A stretch of 21,035 nucleotides of DNA from Byssothecium circinans (taxonomy: Eukaryota > Ascomycota > Dothideomycetes > Pleosporales > Massarinaceae), in NCBI GenBank assembly GCA_010015675.1, contig ML977005.1, forward strand, positions 243,240 through 264,274, in the 5' to 3' direction. The number at the start of each line of letters is the position of its first letter. The stretch's first letter is position 1. Shown here in pieces: positions 233-21,035 of this stretch. The notes below the pieces were generated by a model. It saw nothing but the letters and a program-made list of their open reading frames with translations. It did not search any database and was not told where the DNA came from. The translations under genes and the position numbers were made by a program.

Positions 233-692
233 TGTTACAAGATAATGTATAAGCGCAGCCATGGAGGAATGATACGCTTAGGGAGAGTATCAAATAGTAG
301 GGCGCAGGACAGGGTTAAGGCATTAGTCACGTAAACGTAATCCTACCAAGACTAAAGGATCCTATGGATCCTAGGATTATAGAGAGATCCTAGGATTAAA
401 AGGAGTAGGGGCTCTAGGTAGGATCAAGGACTTAGCGAAGGAATAGAGTAAGTAGTATAAAGACTAGATAGATTTCCTTTATCTTTCTAATTCTAGTTCT
501 TTATAGTTAACTCTCTATAGTTTATCTCTTACCTAGATTAATACTTAGTTATTCTATAGTTAGTTATAGAATTAGTTACTTTCGCACGTTTACCTTTTAA
601 ACTACTAAAGTATACTACCTAACGTATATACCCTATACTAATTAACCTCCCCTAACATGGACTAGGCTTAGCAAGTATACCCCTTAGTAATA
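233..692 (+). repeat. 5' LTR of outer element (460 bp)
   Basis: It starts TGTTACAAG and matches 13956-14415 over its full length. Its last two bases are TA where the partner has the expected CA, a C-to-T change at the very terminus. The second half is almost identical between the two LTRs, while the first half carries most of the transitions. It contains repeated GATCCTAGGAT words near 355-400. Confidence 0.93.
456..462 (+). promoter_or_regulatory. Possible TATA box in the outer 5' LTR
   Basis: TATAAAG lies about midway in the LTR and is preserved in the partner LTR at 14179-14185, although neighbouring bases changed. Placement suits a U3 promoter, but in AT-rich DNA such words arise easily and no start site can be seen. 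Confidence 0.3.
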
Positions 693-722
693 CTTTAACT
701 ACCTATAGGTTTAAGAACCTAA

Positions 723-1690
723 ATGTACGTAATAGTAGCTCCTGCTACCCTACGTGCTACTAGTAGTAGTATTAGAACACCTGCTTTAAGTCTAGCATTA
801 GTAATAGCTAACTAAGCTAACTAGTTACAGTAATAGGCTAAATAGATTAATAGATTAATGCAAGTAATTACTTAACTCTAGGCTAAGGATACTATACCCC
901 ATAGAAAGATTATAGCGCTAGAGAAGTATAATAGAGGATGAGATAGCTTAAAGCTATTCCTTACTAACATAGATTTATACTATCAATTTAATGCCCTAAT
1001 AGAGGATTTAGATAAAATCCTTATGGCTAGCATGCACCTAAAGGATAAAGCAGCCACGTAGATACAACCCTTTATAGATGACTATCTTACAAACAAGATA
1101 AGGCATTATAAGGATGACACGAAGACCATTTTCAAAAGCTAGATAGCGTTCAAGGATAAGATTTAGAAGGTATTTAGAGAACTTAATAAAGAGACCTAGG
1201 CAGAGTAGAAGATATCTTAGATCTAGCAGGAAAGATTAGTTACTAGATATGTGATAGAGTTTAAGTAGCTATAATTAAAGATTAATTAGGATGACGCGCT
1301 ATTGCACACAGCCTTCTACAATAGATTAAAGGAAATAGTTAAGGATAGTATAATCTACTATAACAAGCTAGAAGACTTATAAGACATAATTAACCTAGCT
1401 ACCTAAATTAATAATAGGCTCTACAAACGAGTAATGTAGAAAAAGCAAAAGAATATAATAGTTATTCTTAACTCTAGAAAATATAGGAAGCTAAAGACAC
1501 CACAATATAACTAAGACGGCAATATAGTAATAACAGATAAAGTCTAATAAAAAAAGCAATTTAATAAGGGTAAGAGAAGATAGCTAGACGGCTTAACCTA
1601 TGAATAACGCTAGGAATGCTTCAAGAAGAAGGCATGTCTCTAATGCAGTAAAGTAGGACACTTCCATAGAAATTACCTAAAGAACCAAGG
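723..1690 (+). pseudogene. gag: Gag of outer gypsy element, degraded
   Basis: Gag forms the capsid and nucleocapsid of the element's virus-like particle. The ATG at 723 is 31 bp after the LTR and opens a frame held, through many TAG/TAA codons, to the zinc knuckle. An N-terminal stretch (about 800-880) is rich in presumed Gln and Leu and may be a coiled coil. The capsid part contains SLKLFLTNIDLYYQFN-like sequence near 945-995, typical of Ty3/gypsy Gag. The nucleocapsid CCHC knuckle lies at 1635-1676 (CxxC...GHFHRNY); its last Cys reads Tyr (TAC, reachable from TGC by one G-to-A change). Right after the knuckle the coding signal moves to the -1 frame (next entry). Function is clear from family resemblance; the copy cannot make full-length protein. 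Confidence 0.82.
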
Positions 1691-3064
1691 CTAGGAGCGG
1701 TCAAGATTAGGATAATCAAGTTCAAGGTAACGGGACCTAAGGAGGAAGAGTTAGAGAAGCTACGCTGGTAACTTACTCCCTACCTACTTTTAGAACTAGA
1801 TTAGACAAGATCCCCTAATAACAACGTTAGCAAAACGGACCTTAATACGCTCTTTAGAAGATTCCAAGGATTACTAAGCCTAAGCTAAGGTCTAGCTAAG
1901 AATAAGGTACTAGACTAGGTAATTCAATAATAGCTAAATGCTAGAATATACTAGAGATACGCTAGCACTACGCATGAAGGACTAACTTGCGCCGTACCCA
2001 TATTAGTATATAGAGAGGAAGCTAGCAAAGTAGTAGTAGAGGCTATGCAGATCTAAGGTTTACATGCTATAGGGAAATACATTAGGGTAGAGGTACCTAA
2101 AAAGAATCTTTACTAAGAAGTTAATTAGTACTAGTGTTAGAAGGACCTATGCCTCTACTATAAGCAAGTAAAGAATAAGGTTAGATAATAACTTAGATAG
2201 ATATTACATATCATAGTCCTAGATAAAGACTATCTAGTAGTAGCATGCTACACCTATTACTTTAGCAAATAGTAATAGCAGCACGAACGTATTAGCTAGC
2301 ACAAGTGCTATAATGAGTATTGCTAGATGCATTAGCTAAGCAAACATGTCGTAGGATATTAGCTAGTAGGACCTATAGATAGGAAGATACTAGAATACAA
2401 TATTAAAGACTACCATTATTAACACCCCCTAAGATACCCTGTAAGCTAAGAGCACGAAGAAATAGACTAGGCATAGTGCGAGATGATTCTTAACTGCATG
2501 TTCTATACGCTCTGCAAAGAAGAAGCTGCGTAGGATAAGAGAGGTTAGGACTACGACCTACTTATAGCAAAAGAATGCCTAGATAAGGACTGTAGATGCT
2601 ATGCACTCCCCGCCCTTCCCCATGAATCTAGGAAGGACGCTCGATAGAGGAAGCAAGGCGATTCTAAATAACATTAGTAGAAAATGCTAGATGATTAGTA
2701 TTAGGAAAGGATAGCCTAAGGTAATAAGCTAGTGAATATAACCTAATTCCCTATAAGGCTAGAATCCTTAACACCCAACGACGCCATAGAAAAGGAAAGT
2801 CATAATAACTCGCCCTACGAATAGTGCTTTAATGACTTATATCAAGCACATCTCTTAGAAAAACTTAGGAAGGGTTTCCTAAGGGAGGAAGACGAACGAC
2901 TAAAAGAACACGCTCGTCTGCCTTAGACAGCGTGCTGCATAGACGGCTGTCAAATTCACCTACCTAAGGAAGAAGTGGTAGGAAGGTCCTTAGAAGAACC
3001 CTAAGGGTCAAAAAACTAGAATGCTACTAAAGATAAGGTCATGCTAGTAAGAGTATTTCTATGA
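1691..3064 (+). pseudogene. Gag C-terminal or linker region with four C-x4-C-x2-H modules
   Basis: This is a frame of about 457 codons lying -1 relative to Gag and +1 relative to Pol, crossed by TAG/TAA codons but with extended protein-like sequence. Four modules with spacing C-x4-C-x2-H appear at 2135-2161, 2306-2332, 2576-2602 and 2933-2959: CQKDLCLYY, CYNEYCQMH, CLDKDCRCY and CCIDGCQIH. In the first and third the final His reads Tyr (TAT), one C-to-T step from CAT. The inner element has two related modules at the same relative place. A charged Leu/Glu-rich stretch (about 2840-2910) precedes the fourth. I do not recognise a named domain. Zinc binding and a nucleic-acid or assembly role are inference from the Cys/His spacing. 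The frame ends at TGA 3062-3064, which might itself be a mutated CGA. Confidence 0.6.
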
Positions 3065-6000
3065 TAACCCTATATAACGTACGACACCTAGACCTACTAG
3101 TTTATTAATTAAAGGTAGAAGTGCGCGTATACAGACGCAGGCTTATAGCACTAGTAAATAGTAGAGCTACATAGATAATTATCTCCCTATAAGTAGTTAA
3201 GAAATATAATATACCCTATTAAAATAAGGAATGTTTAATATGAGTAGTATTAGCTAATAATAGACTAATATCTTATAGTAATAGATTCTTAAGGTTAGAA
3301 ACCTAAGAAGTGTTATTCCATATACTTAGGATTAAAGACATAACATCCTTTAACATTATAGATCTTAGTAGAGAAAACATGTTAATTAGTTATAATTAGC
3401 TTATGAAGCACAATCCTACTATTAATTAGTAGAAAGGCATAATGTTTAGCCAAGAACTAGCGCGCAAGGTTGCTAGAACACGTTACGGAAGATTAAGCCT
3501 GGCAATCTAAAGCTTACCTAGTTAGACTAAATGGATTAGCAAGATATCACCTTATAAGGTTAAGAAGATCTATAAGAAGGACTCTTTATAAATAGGAGTT
3601 ATCTAGATACAGAGAGTTACGCCTATAAAAGATGAACCCTAACTAATGATACTACTAGAATATAAGGAATTTTAAGACCTATTTAAAGAAATAGAAGAAA
3701 CTATAATACTAGATCACTAGGATTAGGATTACAAGATTTACCTAGAAGAAGGCGTAAAGCTGCGCTTAAGACTAATATATCTACTTACTCTAGACTAGTA
3801 GTTAGAACTGTAGGAGTACATTAAAAAGAACTTAAAGTAAGGATACATAAAAAAGAGTGCTAGCCTAATGGCTTTACTAATTCTCTTTATCCTAAAGAAG
3901 AATAGAAAGCTGCAACTTTATGTAGATTATAGATAGCTAAACTACGTTATGAGAAAGAACTATTACCCTCTTCCTCTAATCTAAGAACTTATAGACTACC
4001 TCTAAGGAGTTAAGTAGATTATGAAATTTAATATATAAAATAAATTCTATTAAATATAGATAGCTAAAGGCTTTAAATAGCTGACTACCTTTAAAACTTA
4101 GTATAAACTGTACGAGTATACGGTTATGCCCTTTAGATTAATGAACGCGCCTGTAACGTTTTAGGCACTTATTAATAGAGCACTTTATGAATATCTAGAC
4201 GTTTTTATGACTGCGTACCTAGATAATATACTAGTGTATACCTCTAGAACGCTTAAGGATTACATTAAACACGTTAAGAAGGTGCTTAGGAAGCTTAGAG
4301 AGTATTAATTACCTTTATAGCTAGAAAAATGCGATTTCCACGTTACGGAGATAGATTACTTAGGATTTATTATCTTATAAGATAGCATTGCTATAGACCT
4401 AAAAAAAGTCAAGACTATAAGAGAATAGCTAAAACCTAAAATAGTTAAGGATGTATAATCTTTCTTAGGATTTGCTAACTTCTACTAGAAGTTTATTTAG
4501 GGATACTTAAAAACTACAGCGCCTCTTACAGAAATTACTAAGAAAGAGAAGGGATTCCAATAGAGATAAGAATAGTAGGAGGCTTTTAAAAAGCTAAAAA
4601 AACTGTTCTTATTAGCCCCTATGTTACAGATACACGACTTAGAATAGCTACTGCGAGTAGAGACGGATGCATCAGATTACGCCCTAGGAGCGATTCTCTC
4701 GCAGTAAGGCAATAATAAAAAATAGAGACTAGTATTCTACTACTTATGGAAGTTCTTAAGAGCGGAACTTAACTATAATGTTTACGACAAGGAACTACTA
4801 GCGATAGTAGATGCCTTTAAACAATAGCAAGCCTAGCTAGTAGGCGCTAAATACTAAGTAAAAGTGTATTTAGATTACTAGAACCTAATAAGTTTTATAA
4901 TAACTAAGAAACTTAACTAACAATAGGTTAGATAGGTAAAGATAATAGTAGACTATAACTTCAAGGTACACTATCACCTAGGATTGCTAAATAGAGTGGT
5001 GGACGCTCTTAGCTAAAGATCTAACCTTTAGGAAACAGACAGACCTATTACGCATAACGCGGTCCTATAAAAGAATAGAAATGGTAGTCTAAGCTATAAC
5101 TAACCATGACTATTCAAAGGAACTCTAGTTAAACGATTAGCTAAGGTAACTAAGGTTACATAATTATAGGACAAGAAGCTTAACGAGCTTACCTAGGAGC
5201 CTAATAGACGTTAAAAAATCTAGGGAGATAAAGCATGAACGCTTATCTAAAGGCTACATAAGTCTAAAGAATATAGATACCCTAGGATTAATAAGATAGT
5301 TCAACGGATCTTAAACGAATACTTGATCCCTAATATACGAAAAATAGTTTAGAACGTGGTAGGTGACTATTTAGCCTATTCTAAGAATAAGCCTAAGAGA
5401 TATAAGCCCTATAGATTACTCTAATCACTAGAACTACCCGCACGCCTATAGATTAGCGTTATGATAGACTTCATTATAAAGCTCCTAAAATTGTTAGAAC
5501 CTAGATTAGCACGGCTATGCAACTTAATATTAGTAATCGTTGACTAATTAACTAAAGCATTAATATTCATACTAATAGAAGAAATAGTTATAGCTAAAAA
5601 GATAGCTTACGAAGTAACTAAGGCACTTATTAGTTAACATGGTATACTAGAATAGTTTATTACTAATCATAGAATATTATTCACCTCTAAGTATTAGAGC
5701 ACGTTCCTTGCAAAGCTAAGAGTTAATAAGAAACTTTTGACTAGCTTTCATCCATAGATAGATAGGTAGATGGAACGGATGAACTAGACACTAGAACAGT
5801 ATCTAAGAATGTACGCTAATAAACTATAGAATAACTAGGTTAAACTTCTACTAACAGCATAATTAGCCTATAACAGCACGAGATCCTTGATAATAGGATA
5901 CTCGCCGCACTACCTAAACTACGGATATAAGCTAATCGCTTATTAAAATCCTAAGGATGTTAAGAGTCTTTTAGCTAGAGCTAATGACAAGGCACGGCTC

Positions 6001-6576
6001 CTCCGCAAATTACACGACGAATTAAGCAAACGAATTACTTAACGGAACCTTATAATAGCTAGATTAGTAAATAAGAAAAGGCTTAAGGGACTAACTCTTA
6101 AAGAGAGGGATAAAGTTTTCCTATCATGAAAAAATTTGAAAACTAAATAGCCATGCGATAAACTAGATAACCTCTAAATAGGACCCTTTTAAATCCTAGA
6201 GGCTAAAGGACCTATTACATTCAAACTAAAGCTTCCTAAAGGCATGCGTATACACTCTATCTTTTATAAATCCCTCCTTAAACTAGTACTACTAGACGCC
6301 AAAATTAAGACACGAATTAAGCTTAAGGATAAAGATTATGAGGTCAAAGAAATTAAGGACCTACAGAAATTTAAGTATTAGTAGAAGTACTTAGTTAAGT
6401 AGAAGGATTAACTAGATAGCTAGAATACCTAGGAACTAATACAGAATCTTATAGACTATAGGATACTAGTAAAGGACTACTACTAGCGGCATTTAAAGGT
6501 AGTAACCCTGTATTCGCTAGGAAAGTAGAAAAGTCAAAGAATAAAGAAGGATTAAAAGAGGTTAAAGAAGGATTAG
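3065..6576 (+). pseudogene. pol: Pol polyprotein of outer gypsy element: PR-RT-RNaseH-IN-chromodomain, degraded
   Basis: One frame carries all enzymes needed for reverse transcription and integration. Protease: the active-site triad expected as DSG reads N-S-R at 3157-3165, followed by NIPY-type sequence. RT: YLDN at 4216-4227 where family members have YLDD. RNase H: TDASDYALGAILSQ from 4663. Integrase: first Asp kept (IDF, 5467); the second Asp reads Asn at 5665; the Glu is kept at 5773, with DD35E spacing. The zinc-domain Cys pair reads Tyr. A chromodomain follows at about 6337-6450 (YEVKEIKD ... YLVK, with Trp positions now TAG), which in chromoviruses directs insertion to marked chromatin. 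The start is uncertain because no ATG is obvious before the protease. The C-terminus is also uncertain: in-frame TAA/TAG at 6553, 6574 and 6595 may be real or mutated stops. Confidence 0.88.
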
Positions 6577-7054
6577 CCTGCAACTAGCCTAGGTTAGTTA
6601 ACGATGGTTTAGATAGCGGTAGTTTAGATAAAATAGTAGACTCTATACTTTTTAAGATCTTTACCTCTTAAATAGCGTCCATTGCGTTTAAAATATAGTA
6701 ATCCTAGTTTGCAAAAGAATGCTTATAGGCTTCTAACTTAGCTAGCTCTACGCAGAGCTAGGTAGATTTAGCCTAAAGCCACGCAGCCTCTACCTTAAAA
6801 CAAAGAAGCGTAATTTACTTTTCTTTCTTCTTTATTTACACTTTCTCCTACTCCTCTTTAGGAACAAACAGACTGCACTTAGCGTGAACCTAAATACAGG
6901 CGGTGCACTAACCTATAGCCGCATTAATAAAATAATAAAGCTTACGCTTCTAGTAACACTTGCAACCTAGCGCCATCTCTAGCCCTTAAGAACGAATTTG
7001 GTTGGTGTGATTACGACGGCGAATAGTTGACAATTTAGATAGAACCTTAGGCAT
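6449..7054 (-). pseudogene. Antisense accessory ORF of outer element, Zn2Cys6-like cysteine motif, degraded
   Basis: Read opposite to gag-pol, an ATG at 7054 opens a frame of about 201 codons with TAG/TAA at several presumed Gln codons. It aligns without gaps to the antisense product of the inner element (7618-8190) over residues 1-59, with identical residues at 5, 9, 13, 18, 20, 22, 24, 31, 37, 39, 50, 53 and 56. Cysteines stand at 31, 50, 53 and 60; positions 34 and 41, Cys in the inner copy, are Tyr here (TAC and TAT, each one G-to-A step from Cys). The restored spacing C-x2-C-x6-C-x8-C-x2-C-x6-C fits the Gal4-type binuclear zinc cluster. A Lys/Glu/Leu-rich helical stretch follows. Its 3' end runs into the chromodomain coding region. 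The end at TAA 6451-6449 is a best guess. No function is known to me. Confidence 0.62.
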
Positions 7055-7122
7055 AGTTAGGGAAAGGTTAGCGAAACCCTAGAAGAGACTATAACATAAC
7101 AAGCAACTAGGGACACGTACAA

Positions 7123-7127
7123 CTTAT
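7123..7127. repeat. Target-site duplication CTTAT, left copy (inner element)
   Basis: CTTAT precedes the TGTTA terminus at 7128 and recurs at 13873-13877 directly after the TAACA terminus, marking where the inner element entered the outer one. Confidence 0.92.
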
Positions 7128-7587
7128 TGTTAAGGTCCAGGGGGGCTTGTTACCGGAGATGGCTCAAAGAGCTTTTAGGTGACAAGGGTGCTTGAGGTTC
7201 TAGAGCTCGGTTGGTTCTCTGGAAGGGATATCAATTCGCGACACACAGTGGTACTCTAACAGTACGTGGTAATGTTCGTCTAAAGGGCGTATACTTGGTG
7301 AACTTAGGTGAGCTTATAATCATGGAGTATAAGATACTAAATAGATTGTAATCCTAAGTGAAAGGTTGAACATGACTCCTACAATATAGAGATCAAGTCT
7401 ATCTATATACTAGTTACGTCCCTTCATCCCATCCGTCCCACTCGTCCTAGTCCCTTATAGGACTTCTGGGATTCCTAGGACGCTAGGATGGTTACGTGAC
7501 TTGCTTACTACTCATGACTATCTGTCTAGTTAGGGCGTGCAGCCGGTTATTATATAAGTGTAGCGACCCTACTTCTAGATTATAACA
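7128..7587 (-). repeat. 3' LTR of inner element (460 bp)
   Basis: It matches 13413-13872 end to end, with transitions only among the differences I compared. In + orientation it lies 30 bp upstream of the antisense ORF start at 7618, so if it has bidirectional promoter activity it would be the natural promoter of that ORF (inference). Confidence 0.93.
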
Positions 7588-7602
7588 CTATCCCCCCTCT
7601 TA
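7588..7602 (-). promoter_or_regulatory. Polypurine tract of inner element
   Basis: Directly inside the 3' LTR the - strand reads TAAGAGGGGGGATAG, a purine run abutting the LTR. This is the usual plus-strand DNA primer in LTR elements. The outer element has a comparable run AGAGAGGGATAA at its 3' LTR. Confidence 0.75.
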
Positions 7603-7617
7603 GAGCTTAATGTCCTT

Positions 7618-8190
7618 ATAAGTTAACAACTACCCTCTTATTCTATTCGTTACCGCCATCAACTTGCCAACCATATTAACAGTCACGGTTCCTTCGCCAT
7701 AGTCGCTTGTTCTTATTGCGCTAACCGCCAGCTCCCTTGCAAACTGTCGTCCTTGCACAAGCGTTGCAATAGCTGTACTCGTGTTGGGCGCAGCTCATGT
7801 GAACCTGCGGGTTTACCTTTGCTAGATTTCTCGAAAATTAATAAGGAGATGGGTCGTCTTAAGGCGTTAGAGGAAGAAGAGGAAGCTCGCTTACGTGTGG
7901 AAGAGGATGTTGCCAAGGCCGCTCTACAGCGCGCTCGTCTGGTAAGGGAGAAGCTTTTAAGGCTTCGTAAATAAAAGAAACTACTTTATTAGAAGGAGCA
8001 GGAAATGTTTAATAAAGGAATGTCATCTATAGAGGAGTTAGAGGCGTTAGAAGCGTAGGAGGCTCTACTTTAGGATATCACTTCAGTGAATCCGGAGGCC
8101 GCGCTTGGTGCCGCTACTGTTAATTGGTCGCCTTTTTAGAATATTGATGCTAGTGCTTTAGGAGATACTCGCAACCTATAAGGTGTGTAA
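7618..8190 (+). pseudogene. Antisense accessory ORF of inner element, Zn2Cys6-like motif plus coiled-coil-like region
   Basis: Read opposite to gag-pol, this frame of about 190 codons keeps one frame, broken only by TAA/TAG codons (for example 7972-7974, 7987-7989, 8056-8058, 8074-8076). The start is inferred: ATA at 7618 stands where the outer copy has ATG, and ATG-to-ATA is a RIP-type change. Six cysteines at residues 31, 34, 41, 50, 53 and 61 give C-x2-C-x6-C-x8-C-x2-C-x7-C, within the Zn2Cys6 consensus. Residues about 70-140 are Glu/Arg/Leu-rich (LEEEEEARLRVEEDVAKAAL) and predicted helical. A conserved-looking MFNKGMSSIEELEALEA follows. The 3' end overlaps the end of the chromodomain coding region. 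Transcription factor, nucleic-acid binding protein or silencing suppressor are all open; none is demonstrated. Confidence 0.68.
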
Positions 8191-11100
8191 TTAGTTCCTA
8201 TGTGTTTTCATTCTCTAGGTAACCTTTCTATTTAATTAGGTATTCTCTTCTGCCTTTCCAATCTCTCTGGTCCGTGATCTTTTCAACTTTAAATTCATTT
8301 TCTTCCTTGACTTCATAATAGAATGTTTTCTGTAATGGCGTCTTAGGGTTTGCTAGTTCCAATCTAGATACGTGGAACACTGGGTGTATCTTAGCTTCTT
8401 TAGGTAGCTAGAGTTAGTAGTTAACGGGGCTCATCCTAGCTTATATTAAAAATAGTCTAACTTTGACGTTATCTAGTCCCTTACTTAGTTGTTTTGTGCG
8501 AAGATTTTTCATGAGTAGGTATACTCTATCCCCCCTTTCTAGCTGAGGTGCCATTTTTCGTTTTGTGTTTGCGTATGAAATGCTTCTGCGTTATGCCGTT
8601 TTAAGGCTAACCCATAACCGTTGGTGTACGTTCTTTAAGTCCTCTATTATTATTAAAGCTACTACTGCCTTTCCTCCTAGTAGTGTGCGTTTAAAGAGAT
8701 TTAGGTGTTTCCTGTAGTTTGCGTAGAATAGTGTCTGTCCTATAGATTCTGATATTTTATTATTATACGCCAATTAAGCCATAGGTAAAAGGGAAACCTA
8801 ATTATTCTACTAGGTATTACTATAGATTCATAGATATGTCTTTATTATACGATTCATTCTTTTAGTCTGTCCATCCGTCTGCGGATGATATGCTGTAGAT
8901 AGCTTGCGTTTTGTTCTAATTGCAGCCATTAGCGTTTTCCAGTAATTTGATGTGAAGAGCTTATCTCTGTCACTAATAATTGACTTTAGCATGCCATGGT
9001 ATCTAATGAGTTGATCCAGGATCACGTGTCTAAGTTGTTCCGCGTTATAGTCGTTTCTAAATGGTATCATTTCTACGTATTTCGTGAACCTGTTAACAAT
9101 TACTAAGATAGCGTTATAGGTTATTCTAGTCGTAAGGTCCTTTAACACTAGTAGGCCTGTTACGAAGTCCATAGAGATGTCTTCCTATGGTGTTTTTAGT
9201 AACTTAATAGGTTGCATTTCTCTGTAGGATGCGTGCGTGCTGTATTTATTTTTCTGACAGTTCGCGCATTCACTAATAAAGCGTGTAACCTTTTTTTTCA
9301 TACCTTTAAACTCATAATTCCTCTGAATTAGTTCAATAGTCCTTCGAATGCTAGGGTGTCCGTGTACAGGGTCGTCATGATATTGTCGTATGATTTCTTC
9401 CTATAGTTCCTCTAGTACTTCGTTATTGATTCACAGGATGCCGTTTAGTTATTAGGTCGGTCCTAAGGTCCCGTCCTTGTTGGCTCATAGTATTAGTGCT
9501 TCAATGGTTTCCTTTGTTCCTACGATATCACTTCGTCGGCTGAGGGCATCAGCTCGTCCGTTATCCTTGCCTAGTGTGTACATAATCTTGAATTTGTACT
9601 ATCTAAGTAACTCAGACCATCTAACTTATCTTCTGTTGAGTTGTTTAGTCATCGTAAAGTAGAGTAGGTTCTTATGGTTAGTAAAGATGGTGAGTTCAGA
9701 GCAGCTTTCTACGTATACCCTCTAGTGCTTCAATGAATCCATAATAGCTATTAGTTCCTTATCATGTACGTCGTAACGTTCTTCTAGTCCTAAGAACTTT
9801 CTTAAGTAGTAGGTGATAGGGTGCCATTAGCCATTTCTCATCTAACTAGCTGCTGCTCTAAGTGCGAGATTAGATGCGTCCGTTTTAATCCTTATTAGTT
9901 CTCCACTCCTAAATGCCACTAGTACTAGTAGGCTTATACATCTTTCTTTTAGGGTTTTGAATGCTTTCTCCTATGCTTCTAACTATCTAAAGAGTACGTC
10001 CTTCCTAGTAAGTCTTACTAGGGGTAAGGTTATCAAGGCGTATTCTTTGATAAACCTTCTATTGAAGTTGCAGAATCCAAGGAATTCCTGCACTCCTTTA
10101 ACTATTGTTAGTATCGGCTAGTCTTGTACCACTTGTATTTTCTTTGGGCTTATCTTGACCCCTATGGTGTTGACTACGAATCCTAGGAAGTTGAGTTCTT
10201 CCTTGTAGAATTCACACTTTTCCGGCTTAAGACGCAGATCTGCGGCATCTAAGCACGAAAGTACTTGCTTAACATGTCCCACATGCTCTTCAACGTTTTC
10301 TGAATAGATAAGTATGTTATCTAAGTATGCGATCACAAAGATGTCCAGGTGTGTCCGCAATACGTTGTTAATTAATGCTTGGAAAGTCGCCGGGGCGTTA
10401 GTAAGACCAAAGGGCATCACGGTGTATTTGTAGTGTCCATATCATGTCCTAAATGCTGTCTTCTATTCGTCGCCTTCCTTCATACGGATAAGATGGTATC
10501 CATCTCGTAGGTTAAGGGCCGTGAATATCTTCGCACGCACTAGTCAATCCTGTAGTTCTCTAATGTTAGGTAGCGGATAATAATTCTTAACTATGATTTC
10601 GTTTAGTTTCCAGTAGTCCACACATGGTCGTAGTGATCCGTCCTTCTTTAGGGCGAAGAGGACTAGGTATCCTGCTGGTAATTTTGACTCTTATATATAG
10701 CCTTTTGCTAGGCTCTTGTTGATGTAGTCCTGTAGAGCCTTTAGCTCTTTTTCTAATAGTTAATAGATTAGTCTAAAAGTCGGTTGCTTTCCTTCCTATA
10801 GCGTGATTTCGCAGTCCTAGGGTTAATGCTTAGGTAGCGCCGTGGCGCCTACGTCTTCCTAAAAAAGGTGCTCCTATTCTCTGTATTCTTCAGGGATCTC
10901 TAGAGGTGCCTTCTTCTCCTTTACTCTCACTTGTTGATCTATTGACTGGGCAGCATCTATGGAGTCAACCGTTCTCACTAAACGCGTCTTTATTAAAGTA
11001 ATGTTGTTAATTGCCTTCTCATCTACCATTGAACGCTGTCGGTGCGTAGGCTTTAAAGTGCGCTAGTAGGCGTAGTTTGCTAACGATATCATATTGTTCT

Positions 11101-11548
11101 TCTAGTTGATTACTAGGTTATACTTCTTTAGCTAAGGGATTCCTAATATAACGTCGTGAGTGGCCATCTTAAAACAGTCTAGGGTGATCTATTCGCTGTA
11201 GTAGTGGATTTTCATAAGCGCTAAGGTAATCTTGTGTCAAATTTTAGGTTGCTCTGGCATGACTTGTCCATTTGCTACGTGTAGTGGGTAGGGATCCTTC
11301 TTTAGTAGTGGTCTTAGTCCCGCTAAGAGCGCCATTACTATTAAGATGTAATTTGCTTGTAATCCTAAGTCTACTAATGCCTTCATCTTTCTGCCACTAA
11401 GATAGATTAGGATCTTGATTAGACGTTCACCTGCTGCTCCCAGGGTATACAGCCCTTTAGCAGTGTCAGGTGAGGATCTAAAAAAGATGCTCTAAATCCA
11501 TTCTTTTCTTTTTCTTCGGCGTGCCTTTTGCACCTGGTATGTAGACAT
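8150..11548 (-). pseudogene. pol: Pol polyprotein of inner gypsy element: PR-RT-RNaseH-IN-chromodomain
   Basis: A single frame runs from ATG 11548 (MSTYQVQKARRRKRKEW) to a candidate TAG at 8152-8150, about 1130 codons, interrupted by TAG/TAA and one or more TGA. Protease: D-L-G at 11371-11363 where DSG is expected (TCA to TTA). RT: FGLTNAPATFQ at about 10410, then YLDN at 10327-10316 where YLDD is expected. RNase H: TDAS near 9880. Integrase: His/Cys zinc domain at about 9395-9255 with both HxxxxxH-type His and CxxC kept; catalytic Asp at 9169 and 8971; the Glu of DD35E reads Lys at 8863 (TDGQTK). Chromodomain: FKVEKITDQRDW at about 8293-8258, then YLIK and ENENT motifs with Trp codons turned to TAG. 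The enzyme set is recognisable but inactivated. Confidence 0.9.
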
Positions 11549-11562
11549 GTCTGCTACTTGCT

Positions 11563-13392
11563 CTAAGTGTAGATGTTATTGATGATCATGTTTATCTTCA
11601 TTAGTTCCGCGGGATCTTCTTTCCCTAGGAACCATGGTCGTGCCCGTTTATCGTATAAGTGTGTTAGGCATTTGTCGTCGTAGTAGTTGTACCATTTGAA
11701 CTTGTAATCCTTCTTAATGGTTGGGAAGTAGTTTGCTTTCACCTTCGCATTATAGTAGGTGAGATAACCGTCATTATTGCACCAGGTGAAGCTAAGCTTT
11801 CCGTGATTTCCATTTTGATAGTCCATATTATACCGCAATTCTTTGGTCGTTTCTTCCTGCTGTGCTGCTTATTAGATGCTTCCTTCTGCGAGCTCTTGGT
11901 CCACCTAGTTAGCTTGCCTTTTATAGGCTTTCTCCTACTGGTGCCTTAGCTTTTGTTGCTTCCTAGGTCTAGGGTTTGGATCTTCGTATAGGTACTTGTC
12001 GTTGAGTCCTGCGCTAGGCTTCTAGTATTAGTTGTTGTATCCCAAGCGTCCTTAATCCATTAGTTCGTCACCATCTAATGTGACCTCGCTGTTGTACTAC
12101 ATTAGGTCTTTATCCGTCCATCGTGGATGGTTTCCCTGCGCGATTTCAGTATGTTGTAATTCGGAGTCATAGGGGTCTTGGTTTTCCTTCCTAAAGTACT
12201 CTTCCTTTCCGCTGATGATTTGAAGAGCCCTATCAGCCCATGATGGTCCTTCATTGTCCTTAGCTCGTTCGCTGAGCAAGTAGTCCTGAAGTTGTTGTTC
12301 TCTCGCGTTAAGGGGTTGGTCAGGGTCGTTGAGGAAGTCCTAGACTTCGTCGTCCGTGGTGTCAACTTCCTTGTTGTGCCATATCTGATTGGCGGCTTGG
12401 CTGACTCTTTTTCTTACAGATAGTTCCCGTAGCCTTTGTCTGATAGCATTTCCTCTTTCTTCGCCTGAATCAATTACTTCCCAATCGTCGTCTTCTTCGA
12501 CGTTGGGGGGGCAACCCAAGGCATAGGATGCCGTGATCATATTTAACTGTCGTTGGACTGTATGCTTAGCTCTTCCTGGCTTCGCACGATAGTTTCTAGC
12601 GATGTGGCCTGTTTTTCCGCACGAGTAGCACGTCCTGGCTTCTTTTTCGTAGCGGTGGCCCTTCCCTTTCCCTTTTTCGACGTTGTCGAGCTGCATTGGC
12701 TGCAGCCCGTAGGGATCCGAGTATTGCTTCCGTGGCTTCATAGCGGGGAAGTACCTAGGTCTAGTGTAGGTACTCTTAGCCTTGCCCGCGCTAAGTCCAC
12801 TTCGCTTGTCGTGTAGCTTGGATGTCAACTCGTATAGTTGCCCGTTAATTCTGATGGATTCCTGGTATAGTTCCTCCAAGGTGGTGATGGATGCTCCTAA
12901 TCGCATAAGCTCCATTTTAATGGTATCCTTAAGGCCTTGTCTATACATTATCATGAGTGCCTTGTCTTCCCAGCCTGTCTAAATTGCGTAGTGTTGAAAC
13001 TCCGCGGCATATTCAGCAGCTGAGCGTTGTTGTTTGAGGCGCTGCACCTTCCTCCCTGCGACGGATTCCTCGTTCAAGACTCCGAAGACCTATCAGAGAC
13101 GGGTCTTGAATTAAGTATAGTCTTTAAAGAGTATCGTGACTTCATCGTCATTATTATCGTCGTCTAGGTATTTAGTGAGGTAAGGGTTAATCCATCATTT
13201 AGCGTCGCCACGCATATAGGTCGTGATAAAGGAGGCTTTATTGACATCGTCAATGGTGCTAGCTGCAAACTTAAAGTACAAGTTAATTTGTAGGAGCTAT
13301 CCTTTAAGTTTAGCGCGATCTCCATGGTAGAGATCCGGTTTAGCAACCTTACTGGCGTTGCCATAGGATTGGGTATCGTGTGTCTTAGACAT
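11563..13392 (-). pseudogene. gag: Gag of inner gypsy element with CCHC knuckle and two C-x4-C-x2-H modules
   Basis: The ATG at 13392 (MSKTHDTQSYGNASK) is 21 bp inside the 5' LTR. The frame is kept to TAG 11565-11563, about 609 codons, with RIP-type stops mainly in the first 150 codons. The capsid region (about 13330-12830) has the usual retrotransposon Gag layout. The zinc knuckle CYSCGKTGHIARNYR lies at 12630-12586; the fourth ligand is Tyr instead of Cys. Downstream are an acidic stretch and a Gln/Glu-rich region. Two modules then follow: CNNDGYLTY at 11781-11755 and YYDDKCLTH at 11685-11659, each C-x4-C-x2-H if RIP-type Cys/His-to-Tyr changes are allowed. Pol begins 15 bp beyond the stop in the -1 frame. 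Confidence 0.88.
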
Positions 13393-13412
13393 CCTTCTAA
13401 GGGTGTTCAAAA

Positions 13413-13872
13413 TGTTAAGGTCCAGGGGGGCTTGTTACTGGAGATGGCTTGAAGAGCTTTTAGGTGACAAGGGTGCTTAAGGTTCTAGAGCTCAGTTGGT
13501 TCTCTGGAAGGGATATCAATTCGCGACACATGGTGGTACTCTGACAGTACGTAGTAATGTTCGTCTGAAGGGCGTACATTTAGTAAACTTAGGTGAGCTT
13601 ACAATTATAGAGTATGAGATACTAAATAGATTGTAATCCTAAGTGAAAGGTTAAACATGACTCCTATAATGTAGAGATTAAGTCCATCTATATACTAGTT
13701 GCGTCCCTTCGTCCTATCCGTCCTACTCGTCCTAGTCCCTTATAGGACTTCTGGGATTCCTAGGACGCTAGGATGGTTACGTGACTTACTTACTACTCAT
13801 GACTATCTGTCTGGTCGGGGCGTGCAGCTAGTTATTACATAAGTATGGCGACCCCACTTCTGGATCGTAACA
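13413..13872 (-). repeat. 5' LTR of inner element (460 bp)
   Basis: Ends are TGTTA/TAACA. Transcription of the inner element would start here and run leftward. The sequence just inside (- strand TTTTGAACACCC) does not begin with the TGG expected of a tRNA-type primer binding site. Confidence 0.93.
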
Positions 13873-13877
13873 CTTAT
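13873..13877. repeat. Target-site duplication CTTAT, right copy (inner element)
   Basis: Five bases identical to 7123-7127, directly following the inner element's TAACA end. Outer-element sequence resumes here. Confidence 0.92.
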
Positions 13878-13955
13878 ATACTAGCTATAAGAAGAAGTAG
13901 CATAGCAGACACACCTCTTAGGATATTAGGATGATAACCTTAAAGAGAGGGATAA
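13878..13955 (+). other. 3' untranslated tail of outer element with polypurine tract
   Basis: This is the remainder of the outer element's interior after the nested insertion. It carries no frame of note. The purine run AGAGAGGGATAA at 13944-13955 abuts the 3' LTR and is the likely plus-strand primer. Before the insertion this stretch lay about 75 bp upstream of the antisense ORF start at 7054. Confidence 0.7.
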
Positions 13956-14415
13956 TGTTACAAGATAATATATAAGCGCAGCTATAGAGGAATGATACGC
14001 TTAAGGAGAGTATCAAATAGTAGAGCGCAGGATAGGGTTAAGGTATTAGTTACATAAACATGATCCCACTAAGACTAAAGGATCCTATAGATCCTAGGAT
14101 TATAGAGAGATCCTAGGATTAGAAGGAGTAGGGGCTCTAGGTAAGATCAAAGTCTTAGCAAAGGAACAGAGTAAGTGGTATAAAGACTAGATAGATTTCC
14201 TTTATCTTTCTAATTCTAGTTCTTTATAGTTAACTCTCTATAGTTTATCTCTTACCTAGATTAATACTTAGTTATTCTATAGTTAGTTATAGAATTAGTT
14301 ACTTTCACACGTTTACCTTTTAAACTACTAAAGCATACTACCTAACATATATACCTTACACTAATTGACCTCCTCTAACACGGACTAGGCTTAGCAAGTA
14401 TACCCCTTAGTAACA
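13956..14415 (+). repeat. 3' LTR of outer element (460 bp)
   Basis: TGTTACAAG to GTAACA, the same length as 233-692. It keeps the terminal CA that the left copy lost. It has many A/T states where the left copy has G/C early in the LTR and few later. Confidence 0.93.
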
Positions 14416-14838: not shown

Positions 14839-15185
14839 GAACCCTTCTATAGTGCATAGAAGAGGACCCACCTATTAGGAGTTAGCTATTAGCTAGTAGC
14901 TTTCAAATTCTAGGTGCATACCTTAGGGTAAAAGGCAAGAGGTAAGCTTAGAACTATTTGCATCTAAGTCTTAGCTATCTTATTACTTACTAAGTAAAAA
15001 CTATAAGGATATTAGTCATTAAGAACTATTAGTTAAGACTGTTAGTACCTTAATAACTACTTATAGCTAGTTCTTAGAATAATTTGGAAGTTATTCTAAG
15101 TACTTAGTAAGAATAGGATTGAAGAAATAAGTCTTTATAACTTAGTTACTATAAAGGTATTACTAGTTATTAGTTATATTATATA

Positions 15186-15218
15186 AGGCTAGAGTTATAC
15201 TAGATATAACAGTAACCT
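15186..15218 (+). repeat. 33-bp direct repeat, left copy, with internal hairpin
   Basis: The word containing GAGTTATACTAGATATAACA recurs at 17159-17191 in the same orientation with two differences in 33 bp. The core GTTATA...TATAAC is a near-palindrome. The copies bracket the Fot1-like element but at unequal distances (16 and 81 bp), so they are not its target duplication. Confidence 0.75.
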
Positions 15219-15234
15219 TTTATAATATATTCTA

Positions 15235-15259: not shown

Positions 15260-15315
15260 CACTATTAAACTGCTCACAATTCTTTAGCAACACTAACTCC
15301 ATCTTCAACGCGAAA

Positions 15316-17031
15316 ATGCCTTAATAACAAAGGTCTGAATAACTGTAACACGAAGGTAGACTACAGCTTACCCTTAACGCATATAATAGAGGCCAATTTG
15401 AAAGCTATTAAGGCGCTGCTGCAGCCTTTAACGTTAAGCCTCGTGTCCTCACTAAACACGCTAGAGGAATACCTTTTTAACTAGAAATAGTACTAAACCG
15501 TTCAAAACTGTCCCTAACTAAGCAGGAGACACTTATCTGATACATCCTTAACTTTGATTCGCGAGGATTCGCGCCTACGTTAGGCGAAGTATCAGATATA
15601 GCGAATAAACTATTGCACGAGTAGGGTGGTAAGAACGTAGGTATTAACTAGGTAGCATGGTTCATAAACTATTCAGAATAGTTATGAATAGTTTAGAACT
15701 ATTTAAAGGACTATTAGAGGGTAAAACAGGAAGATCCTAAGGTAGTTAGCGCATAGTTTAAGCTTATACAGGATACTAAAGCAAAGTACGGCGTACATGA
15801 TAATGATATACATAACTTTGATAAAACTAGCTTTTAGATGGGTGTTATTAGCTCTATGAAAGTGGTTACTAGCTTAGAGAAGTAAGCAAGGCCTACAATA
15901 GTTTAGCTAGGTGATAAAGAGTAGGTAATGGATATCTAGAGTATATATTTAAATAGTATATTCACCCCACTATTTATTATATATAAAGGACGCGTCTATA
16001 TCTTTTTATGGTACTAGGAAGCTAATATACTACGTAATTAGAAGCTCTTAGTCTTAGAGAATAGATAGACGACTAATAAGCTTAGTCTCATGTAGTTGAA
16101 GCACTTTAACGCGTATATAAAGGTGAGAATTATTAGCGTCTATTAGTTGCTAATTTTAGATGGCCATAAAAGCCACCTAAATCAAGATTTTAAGGATTAT
16201 TATTAAGATAATAAGATCCTTATACTCTGTATACCACTGCACTCGTCACACATCCTCTAGCCGCTTGATGTAGTATTATTCTCGCCGCTTAAGCGCAAGT
16301 ACTCTAAGATTATTTAGGGCTTAGCGTAATAGCGCGTCTTTTATATTAATAAGGAAGCGTTCCTACTAGCCTTTAAAGACGCGTTTTTAAGCATATTTAT
16401 GGTTTAGAACTGTTAAAAGGCCTTTAAGGCAATAGGGCTAGTTCCTTTAAACGCGCAGGTAGTACTTAATTACCTTAATATACGTATACGCACCCTACTA
16501 GGACCCCCACTACTAGAGACGCCATAGCTATTAAGGACTCTAAGTAATACACGCAAATTTAGCTCTTAGTTAAAGTTTATACGTGATTCTATTACTTGAT
16601 TACTACGGATGGCGCAGGGTAGGCTTTCGCAGCTCATTAAAGGTACTAAGTTAGTGCTGCATAGTACTGCGCTTATAAAGTTGCGCATTAAAGACCTTGA
16701 AAAGCAACTTAAGATGATAACTAAGCGTAAAACACGTAAACGCAAGTATATTTAGAAGGGTAGTACTATAGAGTATAGTCCTATAGTAGACTAGAATAGT
16801 TCTAAACTATTAGGAATGGTTTAGAACTATAAAAGGGCGAGGGTAGAGGGTGAGGGTAAGGTGCGATAACCACGACAACTAGGTGTTCGGCGCTGAGGCA
16901 ACTATAGTAAGACTAGGTATAACGCGAGAACTTATTAAGCTAATAAAGAGGGTTCTTCTAAGTTAGAGGCTAGTACTTAGTATATATTTTTAGATAGTAA
17001 TGTGGACGATAATGATGATGTAGTTAAGTAA
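15316..17031 (+). pseudogene. Fot1/pogo-family transposase, full frame with many stops
   Basis: This enzyme cuts and reinserts the transposon. ATG 15316 to TAA 17029-17031 is 571 codons plus the stop without a frameshift, interrupted by TAG/TAA at presumed Gln/Trp codons and a TGA near 15538. Domains: an N-terminal psq-type HTH (residues about 17-55, LTLNAYNRGQFESY...), a CENP-B-type HTH (about 75-125), and the DDE catalytic core. Core motifs: NFDKTSF with Asp 169, LDGHKSH with Asp 282, and HSSH..PLDV with Asp 318, giving D-x35-D at the second interval as I recall for Fot1 rather than pogo. The C-terminus is basic (KTRKRKY at about residue 475). All three Asp survive, so inactivation is by stops alone. 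Length suits the family (about 540-570 residues). Confidence 0.86.
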
Positions 17032-17052
17032 GTTAGTGTTACCAAGGAATCA

Positions 17053-17077: not shown

Positions 17078-17158
17078 TAATATCTTTAATACTTTATATT
17101 ATTCTAAGTTCTTATTACTTTCTGATTTTTATAAAGATATTTATATCTATATAAGTAT

Positions 17159-17191
17159 AGGCCAGAGTTATACAAGATATAACAGTAACCT
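17159..17191 (+). repeat. 33-bp direct repeat, right copy
   Basis: Matches 15186-15218 at 31 of 33 positions; see that entry. The TA-rich run that follows at about 17195-17220 differs from the sequence after the left copy. Confidence 0.75.
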
Positions 17192-17566
17192 AGTATTTAT
17201 ATATATATATATATCTTATATAGAAATCTCTTAATAGATTCATTAGAGTAGGAGTAATCTCTATAAAATCTATCTAAGACTCTTATAAGGCTAAGGAGTA
17301 AACTATATACAAACTATCTTCTAGATCTTTTAAGATTTAGCTATAAAGGGAAGACGTTTAGTATTTTAGTTACCTTACTTATAGTATCTAATAAGCGTTA
17401 GCAGGATACTATTTAAAGCTATATAGCTATAGCATCTATAAGTCTATAGCTATAATAAGCTAGCCTATCAGTATTAAAAGGTTCAATCCCTTTTTCTACT
17501 TATTGGATTAAGGTAATTGTTAATACTATCTAGCTGTGAATACCTTCCTGAAAAAGCTATTTAATT

Positions 17567-18599: not shown

Positions 18600-18822
18600 G
18601 CTTTGTTGTAGTCTGCTTTTATAGCATATAAAAAATCTACAAAAATATATAAAATAGGCCATTTTATATATTAGCTTTTCTGCTATTTGTCTATTTATCT
18701 ATTGTATAAATAAGACTGTCTATTTATTTATTATATAAATAAGACTATATATATATATATATAAATATATATATTATTATAGTATATCTATTACTATTAT
18801 ATCTATAAATACTACTATAAAA
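18600..18822. other. AT-rich leader before copia gag-pol
   Basis: No frame is visible. It holds the 29-bp tandem repeat at 18688-18745 and TA-rich runs. The copia LTR end and primer binding site should lie here or further left, but I cannot identify them. Confidence 0.45.
18688..18745 (+). repeat. 29-bp tandem duplication, two copies
   Basis: TGTCTATTTATCTATTGTAT... at 18688-18716 is followed directly by a second copy at 18717-18745 ending AAATAAGAC. The two differ at two sites, one C/T and one G/A. Confidence 0.8.
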
Positions 18823-21035
18823 ATGGAAGGTCTCTTTAAAGTCCCTAAATTAAAGGGCTCTGTCAATTATGACATATGGGCTGTAAGGATGCAGGCAATC
18901 CTTATGAAAGAGAACTGTTTTGATACTATTAGTATACCACCTAATAGTATTAATAATATAGTTTATACAGACCCACTCTTATTAGCTAATATAAAAGAAG
19001 AAGCTAATAAAGCTTTATCTATAATTAAGCTATCCTTAGAAGATTCTCCTTTAGTATTAACTAAAGATAATAATAGCCCTTATTCAATTTAGAATAATTT
19101 AAAAGCGCTATATGAATCAAAAGGATTTAGTAGTAATTTTATTATTAGTAAAGCACTAATTAATACTACTTTATCAAATTCTAAGAATAATATAGAGACC
19201 TATCTAACTGATATAAACCGCTTAGTAACAGAGCTTAATTCTAAAGGAATAGAATTACCTAAGCAATTTATTGCTGCTCTATTACTAAATAATCTAGATC
19301 ATAAGGATTATAATTATTTAATAACTATAATTACTAATGATTTAAGGTCATCTAAAGATGAACCTAACCTAGAAAAGATTTATAATCAACTGTTAGATAA
19401 ATCTAGAAGGATTAGATCTATTAAGAATCCTAGAACTATATTACCTAGTAATTATATTTCTACTAGAGATAGTAATAATAGCAAGACTAAAGTAGATGCA
19501 CAAGGTAATACTATTATGTCCCTAAATAATAGCACTACTAGTAGAAGACTAGGAAATAGATCTAATAATTTTAAAGGCAATACTAGTAAAAGTACTAGCA
19601 ATTTTCTTGTTTATAGCTATTGCAAAAAGAAAGAACATATTGCTACTACTTGTTTTATTAAAAATAATAAGGCTGGAAATACTAGTCGTAATAAGAATAG
19701 AGTTAATACTACTATAGTAGAAGAAGCTTTAACAACCTTTATTGCTAAAGACTATCCTTCTAATACTATAATAGAACCTAATTCTTCTAAAATAACAGTT
19801 AATAATACTTTAATTAATAAAAGTATTAACTAGATTTTAGATAGCGGAGCCTCTAGTCATATATGCTCTATTAAAGGACTATTTAATACTTTAAAACCTA
19901 TTAGTAATACCTCTATTAAATAGGGTAATACTAATAGCTATATAACTGCTACAGGAATAGGAGATATATCTCTTATTTTTGCTAGTACAAATAAAGCAGT
20001 TAAGCTTAATAAAGTATTATATGTACCTGAATTAGGTGTTAATTTACTATCTTATTATAATATATTAGATATAGGATATACCATTAAATCTAATATACAT
20101 TCCTGCCTAATAAGGAATAAAAAGATTCTAGCTACAGGTAGTTATTATAATAAACTAGTAGTTTTTACTACTAGATTAAACTATAATAATAGCATTTATA
20201 GTAACTTTTATCTTAATAATATACAAGAAAATGTTATTTTAAATACTAAAACTATAGATACTATTACTATACATAAAAGGCTAGGACATATAGGTGAAAA
20301 TGCTTTAGCAAAATTACCTACTAGTTGTCTAGACTTTAATAGTAATATAGACATTAAGAAAGCTAAATATAATCTTAATAACTGTATTACTTGTATAGAA
20401 GCTGAGTTTACTAAAAAAGCTTCTAAAGATAGTATTACTACAGTAGTTAATAACTACAGGGATTTAATATATATAGATATAGGTGGTCCTATAACACCTA
20501 GGTCTTATAAAGGCTATAAATACTATATAACCTTTCTAGACTATAAGACAAAATATCTATATTTAACCCTATTAAAAACTAGAGAGGATTTATTAAATCC
20601 TATTAAATCTTTTTATAGCCTTATAGAAACTTAAGATAGTATTAAAATTAAAGCTCTTTAAGGGGATAATGAATTTGATACTACTAGTATAACTAGTTTT
20701 ATTAAATCTAAAGGTGCTATTATAAGATTTACTTCACCTTATAACCCTGAACAAAAAGATGGTGCAGAAAGAATTAATAGGACTTTATTTAATAAAGTAA
20801 GAGCTTTATTAAGAGAAAGTTAATTGTCTAATGAATATTAGGCTGAAGCTATTATTATAGCTGTCTATTTATATAATAGAACACCTAATAGCTCTATTAA
20901 TTTTATGACACCTTATGAAGCTAAACTTAATACTAAACCTAATATTAATAATATTAGGATATTTGGCTCTTTAACATATAAAAAAGAACCAAAAGAGTTT
21001 CTAAAGAAGCTAGACCTAAGGGCTAAACCTTATTA
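18823..21035 (+). pseudogene. gag-pol: Ty1/copia Gag-Pol (gag, protease, GAG-pre-integrase, integrase), 5' part, cut by window edge
   Basis: One frame from ATG 18823 (MEGLFKVPKLKGSVNYDIWAV) runs off the right edge, about 737 codons, with no frameshift. Seven in-frame stops, all TAG/TAA: 19090, 19831, 19921, 20632, 20659, 20821, 20839. Gag resembles copia-type Gag (NYDIWAVRMQA, later KALYESKGF). The zinc knuckle near 19612-19653 is YSYCKKKEHIATTC, with the first Cys now Tyr. Protease active site LDSGASSHIC at 19837. GAG-pre-integrase HKRLGH at 20272 and CITC at 20383. Integrase catalytic residues: Asp 20476 (YIDIGGPI), Asp 20665 (GDNEF), Glu 20767 (GAERINR). The usual DNGGEF is shortened to DNEF, so the second interval is 33 rather than 35 residues. 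The order protease-integrase before RT identifies Ty1/copia. RT and RNase H must lie beyond the window. Confidence 0.9.

Follow-up and report, generated by a model that had tools for sequence, protein, structure and literature searches.

What is encoded opposite gag-pol at the 3′ ends of two nested Ty3/gypsy retrotransposons in the ascomycete Byssothecium circinans, where each element keeps a long reading frame on its antisense strand? We addressed this question in a window of 21,035 nucleotides (GenBank assembly GCA_010015675.1, contig ML977005.1, positions 243,240 to 264,274 of the forward strand), and all positions below are those of this whole stretch. An earlier note, made from the sequence alone, had proposed that the two frames represent an accessory antisense gene carried by a lineage of fungal chromoviruses. 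Each of the two antisense frames turned out to be the decayed remains of a real gene, and the proposal is supported by the existence of stop-free relatives, namely homologues of both frames and one copy (L012) in the host genome itself. The two elements and their antisense genes are arranged as follows (LTR, long terminal repeat).

6,449–7,054, − strand: decayed outer antisense gene of 201 codons and a stop, interrupted by 12 stops, start ATG
7,618–8,181, + strand: decayed inner antisense gene of 187 codons and a stop, interrupted by 6 stops, start reading ATA
6,875–6,964, − strand: six-Cys motif of the outer antisense protein (residues 31–60), two of the six now Tyr in the window copy
7,708–7,800, + strand: six-Cys motif of the inner antisense protein (residues 31–61), C-x2-C-x6-C-x8-C-x2-C-x7-C
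233–14,415, + strand: outer Ty3/gypsy element, with LTRs at 233–692 and 13,956–14,415 and a 5-bp target duplication (TGCTA), split by the inner element
7,128–13,872, − strand: inner Ty3/gypsy element (chromovirus), with LTRs at 7,128–7,587 (3′) and 13,413–13,872 (5′) and the duplication CTTAT
8,123–8,299, − strand: chromodomain at the 3′ end of the inner pol, its far end overlapping the antisense stop
7,588–7,605, − strand: polypurine tract of the inner element, reading CTATCCCCCCTCTTAGAG on the + strand and adjoining the 3′ LTR, likewise in other copies inspected

LTR edges were obtained from LTR pair detection, and the junctions and target duplications were read off the sequence. Among the pieces of the inner pol, RVT_1, zf-CCHC and Chromo scored above the Pfam cut-off and rve below it. 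The C-terminal integrase chromodomain that characterizes chromoviruses was found in the inner element (PF00385, 31.4 bits against a cut-off of 25.1); the corresponding outer piece, with its five stops read as X, reached 17.0 bits, under the same cut-off.

Decayed antisense genes and selection on their frames

With its stops read as X, the inner frame matched 12 predicted proteins (E = 3.1e-65 to 2.1e-35), and a profile of these matches found at least 41 predicted proteins among the best 7,993 candidates scored. A search with the frame of L049, a sister of the outer copy with few mutations, gave 54 predicted proteins, several of which are named in UniRef as Zn(2)-C6 fungal-type domain proteins. 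Here and below, loci designated L are sister copies taken from the same 48.4 Mb host genome, and relatives from outside that genome are predicted proteins only. Some of the homologues counted are fragments, and the sources are metagenomes and Pleosporales: those named are Pyrenophora, Bipolaris, Exserohilum, Ophiobolus, Setomelanomma and Sporormia, and the three that were checked (Sporormia, Setomelanomma and Bipolaris) all belong to Pleosporales. Viral contigs contained 114 stretches fitting a pattern for relatives, none of which was confirmed. In 14 of the 27 displayed outer-family rows, as well as in the protein P0011, the tail matched by eye the antisense reading of the window's chromodomain end, which suggests the same antisense position relative to the chromodomain in other species. 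Among the antisense zinc-cluster proteins, P0077 of Pyrenophora tritici-repentis bears the name 'Chromo domain containing protein' with no chromodomain evident in its sequence, probably because the neighbouring pol misled the annotation.

The coordinates and strands that the earlier note had given for both frames were confirmed, as were its 13 ungapped identities, which fall within the first 60 residues (shuffles of the inner peptide gave a mean of 3.7, and 0 of 2,000 reached 13), and its shared Cys residues at positions 31, 50 and 53. The initiator position is shared as well, the less mutated inner sisters L012 and L004 having ATG at the window's ATA. In the inner frame, Cys occupies positions 31, 34, 41, 50, 53 and 61; in the outer frame it occupies 31, 33, 50, 53 and 60, with Tyr at 34, 40 and 41. 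The Cys-to-Tyr differences described at outer positions 34 and 41 hold up: sister copies have Cys or Tyr only, and the six motif positions are always Cys or Tyr, its G-to-A product, in 29 outer-type and 22 inner-type host copies, which accounts for Tyr at these two sites. One correction concerns outer Cys 33, which lies outside the motif; the less mutated copy L049 has Arg 33 and Cys 34. The internal stops had been described as products of repeat-induced point mutation (RIP), and comparison with sister copies bears this out for all six inner stops and for 11 of the 12 outer ones; the remaining outer stop recurs in every copy compared. It is residue 129 (position by eye), near which the homologue P0042 has Gln, and may represent a RIP hot spot or an ancestral truncation. 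In L012, the inner-type antisense frame is uninterrupted.

Could such frames be the shadow of sense coding, or open by chance? Purifying selection beyond any sense-strand effect had been set beforehand as the test, and it was found in the outer family by dN/dS (the ratio of nonsynonymous to synonymous divergence), by transversions and by sense stops. For L049 and L060, the least mutated outer pair, the synonymous (pS) and nonsynonymous (pN) proportions of differences in the antisense frame were 0.39 and 0.10, with a dN/dS of 0.19. Across seven outer-type copy pairs dN/dS was 0.19–0.31, and diverged pairs gave 0.35–0.64 or undefined values. A shadow or chance frame would agree with one L012 sense frame that has only 3 stops, and with one sense register that matches the low antisense dN/dS, the latter because third positions are shared between the two. 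This mirroring register, however, is interrupted by 9 stops in L049, by 7 in L060 and by 10 in L012, whereas none of the six frames has fewer stops than the antisense one in 19 of 22 copies of the inner family and 29 of 30 of the outer (manual count), and stop-free homologues occur in other genomes with E values down to 3e-65. RIP yields transitions only. Among transversion columns of the outer family, in which at least 2 of 29 copies differ, 7, 2 and 16 fell at codon positions 1, 2 and 3 (chi-square 12.1, 2 degrees of freedom, by hand); the changes were too few to decide in the inner family (1/3/3 in 22 copies) and in the copies called type III below (0/2/1 in 7 copies). On the basis of homologues, stop counts, dN/dS and transversion positions, we rejected the shadow or chance reading, which is highly improbable.

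Six-cysteine motif and protein architecture

The six Cys are invariant in 29 of 29 inner-family rows, with the spacing C-x2-C-x6-C-x8-C-x2-C-x6/7-C (two rows have a one-residue indel between Cys), and are at least 90% conserved among the 54 outer-family rows. Both families thereby show the six-Cys spacing of Gal4-type clusters (PF00172). When the inner and outer family profiles were compared with hhalign, the whole alignment gave E = 1.4e-11, the zinc part alone E = 1.7e-7 and the helical part alone nothing. On this profile comparison, the two antisense families are evidently homologous through the six-Cys Gal4-type motif.

The assignment to a Gal4-type zinc cluster made in the earlier note stands for the outer family, in which L049 passes the Pfam cut-off for Zn_clus (23.2 bits against 21). 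Two further outer copies scored below this cut-off (L040, 17.7 bits; L060, 13.8 bits), and 12 of the 54 outer homologues reached E ≤ 0.01. For the inner family the assignment is indirect, through spacing, profile homology and predicted fold: L012 had no match to Zn_clus, and the best E value among 6 of 29 homologues was 0.0044. Two AlphaFold models, with mean predicted local distance difference test (pLDDT) scores of 82.6 and 70.9, contained two short helices after the C-x2-C pairs and a long helix at residues 72–133, with tails of low confidence. In Foldseek searches up to E = 10, zinc-cluster proteins made up 4 of 4 and 19 of 19 matches, none individually significant, and in a second inspection of the inner model two unrelated helical chains outranked the zinc-cluster matches. 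Searched by sequence against solved structures, the inner profile had RSC30 as its best zinc-cluster match (E = 0.72), and the outer profile gave nothing up to E = 1. The tail is conserved as GWLQA...FDFSxFLA in the outer family and as VDWSxFW in the inner family, and may resemble an activation surface. The antisense protein is predicted to bind zinc and DNA.

Promoters, U3 motifs and their turnover

Three further features of the window concern transcription of the antisense and sense genes.

7,123–7,127, − strand: remnant of the outer antisense TATA box (TATATAAG at −76 in sisters), with the remainder at 13,873–13,880 and the inner element inserted inside
7,547–7,560, + strand: TATA-like TTATTATATAAGTG, about 70 bp upstream of the inner antisense start, within the LTR
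7,417–7,482, + strand: repeats in the unique 3′ region of the LTR (U3) of the inner element (type I CGTCCCA plus decayed forms), with a second copy at about 13,702–13,767 in the other LTR

Of 30 outer copies, 28 carry TATATAA at position −76 relative to the antisense ATG. All six of the more divergent outer copies L060–L065 likewise have a TATA box, placed at −76 or −74, and the conserved sequences CCTCC and TAAC(C/T)ATG come after it. This outer antisense TATA lies between the polypurine tract and the gene, outside the LTR. The window copy is without TATATAA, since the inner element was inserted in the box, and the window's outer copy has thus lost its antisense promoter. At the place of the inner TATA-like sequence, all 22 inner copies have a weaker TATTA(C/T)ATAAGT. 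Antisense transcription probably starts from a TATA of its own, as far as these conserved positions indicate.

Upstream of the sense TATA, U3 contains iterated motifs that differ by copy type. These were GTCCCA/CGTCCC four times in type I (L012, L004), CTAATTAC in type III, TGATCCCG/CGGGATCA in type A, TGATCTCT in type B, CTGAGCA in type C (one copy) and CTACGTC at 9-bp steps in type D. The copy number of 7-mers in L049, L066, L067, L068 and L080, and that of 6-mers in L012 and L004, was reached by 0 of 200 dinucleotide shuffles; L069 and L027 were borderline in the 7-mer measure. When 180-bp windows were tested with 100 shuffles, 6 of the 9 from U3 reached p = 0.02 (L069 gave p = 0.04) and none of the 83 controls, which came from the same copies, did so; 7-mers with at least four copies occurred in 5 of 9 against 0 of 83. 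The U3 and control windows are not independent. An E-box-like palindrome, TCACGTGA, stands beside the variable motifs in several types (e.g., L004, L027, L049, L066 and L068); it is exact in 9 of 13 readable U3 sequences (by eye) and is a possible constant host-factor site.

Within each family, pol and R-U5 (the remainder of the LTR) are near-identical apart from transitions, and the differences between copy types affect U3 and the DNA-binding part of the antisense gene jointly. For this comparison we counted only mismatches between purines and pyrimidines, which RIP does not cause. Type III (L023–L029) has 78–82% amino acid identity to the inner family at the 3′ end of pol and 84–87% DNA identity in the LTR over about 300 bp, and its antisense protein is only 25% identical to the inner-family protein. 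Between types I and III (7 of 22 and 7 of 7 copies, respectively), mismatch was 0.00–0.03 in R-U5, 0.17–0.44 from U3 through most of the antisense gene, and 0.00–0.02 in pol beyond +720. The outer comparison covered 19 copies (7 of type A, 5 of B, and 7 of C and D taken together; L071 was left out, its start not having been found). Across these types, mismatch was 0.00–0.05 in R-U5 (bins −560 to −400) and 0.00 at the edge of the LTR and the polypurine tract, and U3 of type A differed from that of B or C/D by 0.16–0.41. The antisense gene was divided in the same comparison, with a mismatch of 0.15–0.62 in its first 400 bases and 0.02–0.06 in the C-terminal tail. Synonymous divergence between L060 and L061 was high (pS 0.62); with synonymous sites as diverged as the rest but pol not, the data agree better with exchange between old lineages than with rapid change in situ. 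Among 150 scored genome matches to the outer frame, 54 were only 32–42% identical (manual count), so other antisense types are common. A matrix-correlation test of U3 against antisense type was not used, as its fixed windows slipped at indels and gave high values even for regions expected to be uncorrelated.

Proposed regulation and known systems

We consider it reasonably probable that the antisense gene encodes a Gal4-type regulator that binds the iterated motif of its own U3 and regulates gag-pol transcription, regulator and site forming an exchangeable specificity cassette. The gene, between the chromodomain and the 3′ LTR, would be read from its own TATA promoter beside the polypurine tract. 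Its product of about 190–200 residues would have a zinc cluster of the Gal4 type, followed by a long helix resembling a coiled coil and by a conserved tail of aromatic/acidic character. Most likely as a dimer, the protein would bind the short motif iterated in its element's own U3, immediately 5′ of the sense TATA, and the bound dimer would set sense transcription. We infer which U3 motif is bound and likewise the sign of regulation, for which activation is somewhat likelier than repression because of the conserved tail. The idea of a cassette follows from the joint replacement of the DNA-binding part and the U3 motif between types. Reverse transcription of LTR elements takes the U3 of both ends from the 3′ end, so that a new 3′ end would bring gene and site into an element in one step; lambdoid phages show a comparable logic in their immunity regions. 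It is possible, though a little short of probable, that swapping this unit of zinc-cluster regulator and iterated U3 operator into a conserved gag-pol/R-U5 backbone gives rise to new regulatory types without cross-talk. If so, cassette swapping would explain the diversification of U3 in fungal gypsy elements, as a regulator-operator arms race or as self/non-self control among sister elements.

Several observations weigh against this proposal. One stop is common to all outer copies compared, and a stop-free outer-type frame was not found among host-genome copies, L049 and L060 having 3 stops each. Pfam scans gave no significant Zn_clus match for the inner family or for types B, C, D and III, and the fold matches had E values of 0.39 or worse. 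Exact motifs are nearly confined to their own type (off-diagonal means no higher than 0.14 per copy; when one RIP-type change is tolerated, motif C scores 2.43 in type III and 1.29 in D), and these type-specific counts are partly circular because the motifs were picked from the sequences later counted. The 7-mer dinucleotide-shuffle measure was not significant in the more mutated L003, L002, L040 and L026, and enrichment at k = 7 was absent in L012 (p = 0.75) and L027 (p = 0.22). Classical CGG/CCG half-sites, inverted or everted within 13 bp, were not found in the LTRs of L012, L004 and L049. Types B and C/D have the U3 part next to the polypurine tract in common (0.05–0.06) and diverge nearer the sense TATA (0.19–0.42).

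Two other explanations accept the gene and differ as to its role. Fast U3 turnover by template switching, as in crapaud and Tnt1, might drag along the adjacent antisense part while the protein serves a function unrelated to U3, such as nuclear import or targeting. Since U3 and the gene are adjacent, one exchange would cover both, and U3 diversity with a common internal region is known from elements for which the consulted parts of the sources report no antisense gene (PMC10787394; PMC1838419). However, the outer exchange ends inside the antisense gene, where the zinc cluster is replaced and the C-terminal tail spared; moreover, passive exchange is not expected to produce iterated, type-specific U3 motifs, and a zinc cluster suggests DNA binding, which makes this explanation unlikely. 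Iterated and type-specific motifs are also what would be seen if the protein were a sequence-specific anti-silencing factor like VANC of the VANDAL transposons of Arabidopsis, binding the U3 repeats and removing repressive chromatin marks; according to the excerpts consulted, VANC proteins bind non-coding target regions, which are tandem repeats and diverge rapidly between related elements (PMC10398659, PMC5735166). With RIP at work in the host, silencing is a genuine pressure. Here, however, the motifs directly precede the sense TATA, at the place expected for the binding site of a promoter factor, and the protein's architecture resembles that of Gal4-type transcription factors, so that we regard anti-silencing as quite unlikely.

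Two regions lie outside the nested elements. At 15,260–17,050 a decayed sequence, possibly a DNA-transposon gene, is flanked by similar 49-bp direct repeats (15,175–15,223 and 17,148–17,196). At 18,739–20,634 the open frames are far less mutated and seemingly belong to a copia-like polyprotein, with gag and integrase-like text, a label given by reading only.

The antisense proteins resemble Gal4-type Zn2Cys6 factors (PF00172) in their six-Cys spacing and the helix that follows it, and perhaps in their predicted fold, and differ in being small, element-borne and antisense, with most types under the Pfam cut-off. A parallel in function only is offered by HBZ of human T-cell leukemia virus type 1 (HTLV-1), whose gene, likewise coding for a regulator, lies antisense at the 3′ end of an element that replicates by reverse transcription. 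HBZ is a basic leucine zipper (bZIP) protein, whereas the proteins described here have a zinc cluster and no bZIP domain was found in them by Pfam scans; the outer-family promoter, in addition, lies beside the LTR and not inside it.

A conserved open reading frame (ORF) antisense to gag-pol between pol and the 3′ LTR, the arrangement typical of aORF-3R and brtn, was found in our elements. A case alike in position is brtn, the antisense gene of Boty-like retrotransposons in Botrytis cinerea (Zhao et al. 2011, via citing papers), which, like the genes of both window elements, lies between pol and the 3′ LTR of a chromodomain-bearing ascomycete gypsy element. The passages citing it mention no zinc cluster, U3 linkage or cassette exchange, and the comparison is one of descriptions, not of sequences. 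In plants, aORF-3R genes (Grande gene23, RIRE2 and Retand) share the antisense position between pol and the 3′ LTR and a suspected nuclear or DNA-binding role; the Retand ORFs, however, have Transposase_28 and not a zinc cluster, and the consulted parts of the sources do not mention coupling to a U3 motif (PMC7264820, PMC11963269). VANC, too, is an element-encoded protein with a repeated target motif that varies between related elements (PMC10398659, PMC5735166), but it belongs to a plant DNA transposon and is not known to be a related protein. With respect to U3, crapaud of Podospora anserina is a chromodomain gypsy element with subfamilies that have most of the internal region in common and are set apart by the part of U3 upstream of the TATA; the portion of the source consulted describes two ORFs, contains no occurrence of the word antisense and leaves the cause of U3 diversity open (PMC10787394). 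Diversity of U3 with a shared interior has likewise been described for Tnt1 (PMC1838419, in part).

In the openly licensed literature searched, which did not include Zhao et al. 2011, we found neither a zinc-cluster antisense gene, nor its homology across gypsy families, nor its joint exchange with U3. What is known already, separately, is antisense genes at this place (brtn, aORF-3R) and U3 diversity (crapaud, Tnt1). Antisense genes near the 3′ LTR have been recognized in plants, retroviruses and Botrytis, mostly without a function, and U3 hypervariability in fungi and plants. If each antisense protein matches the motif of its own U3, these two puzzles become one, and the match can be tested directly with small domains and short DNA probes. 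If true, the sequence-specific regulators of LTR retrotransposon transcription are encoded by the elements themselves, which diversify by exchanging regulator and operator as a pair.

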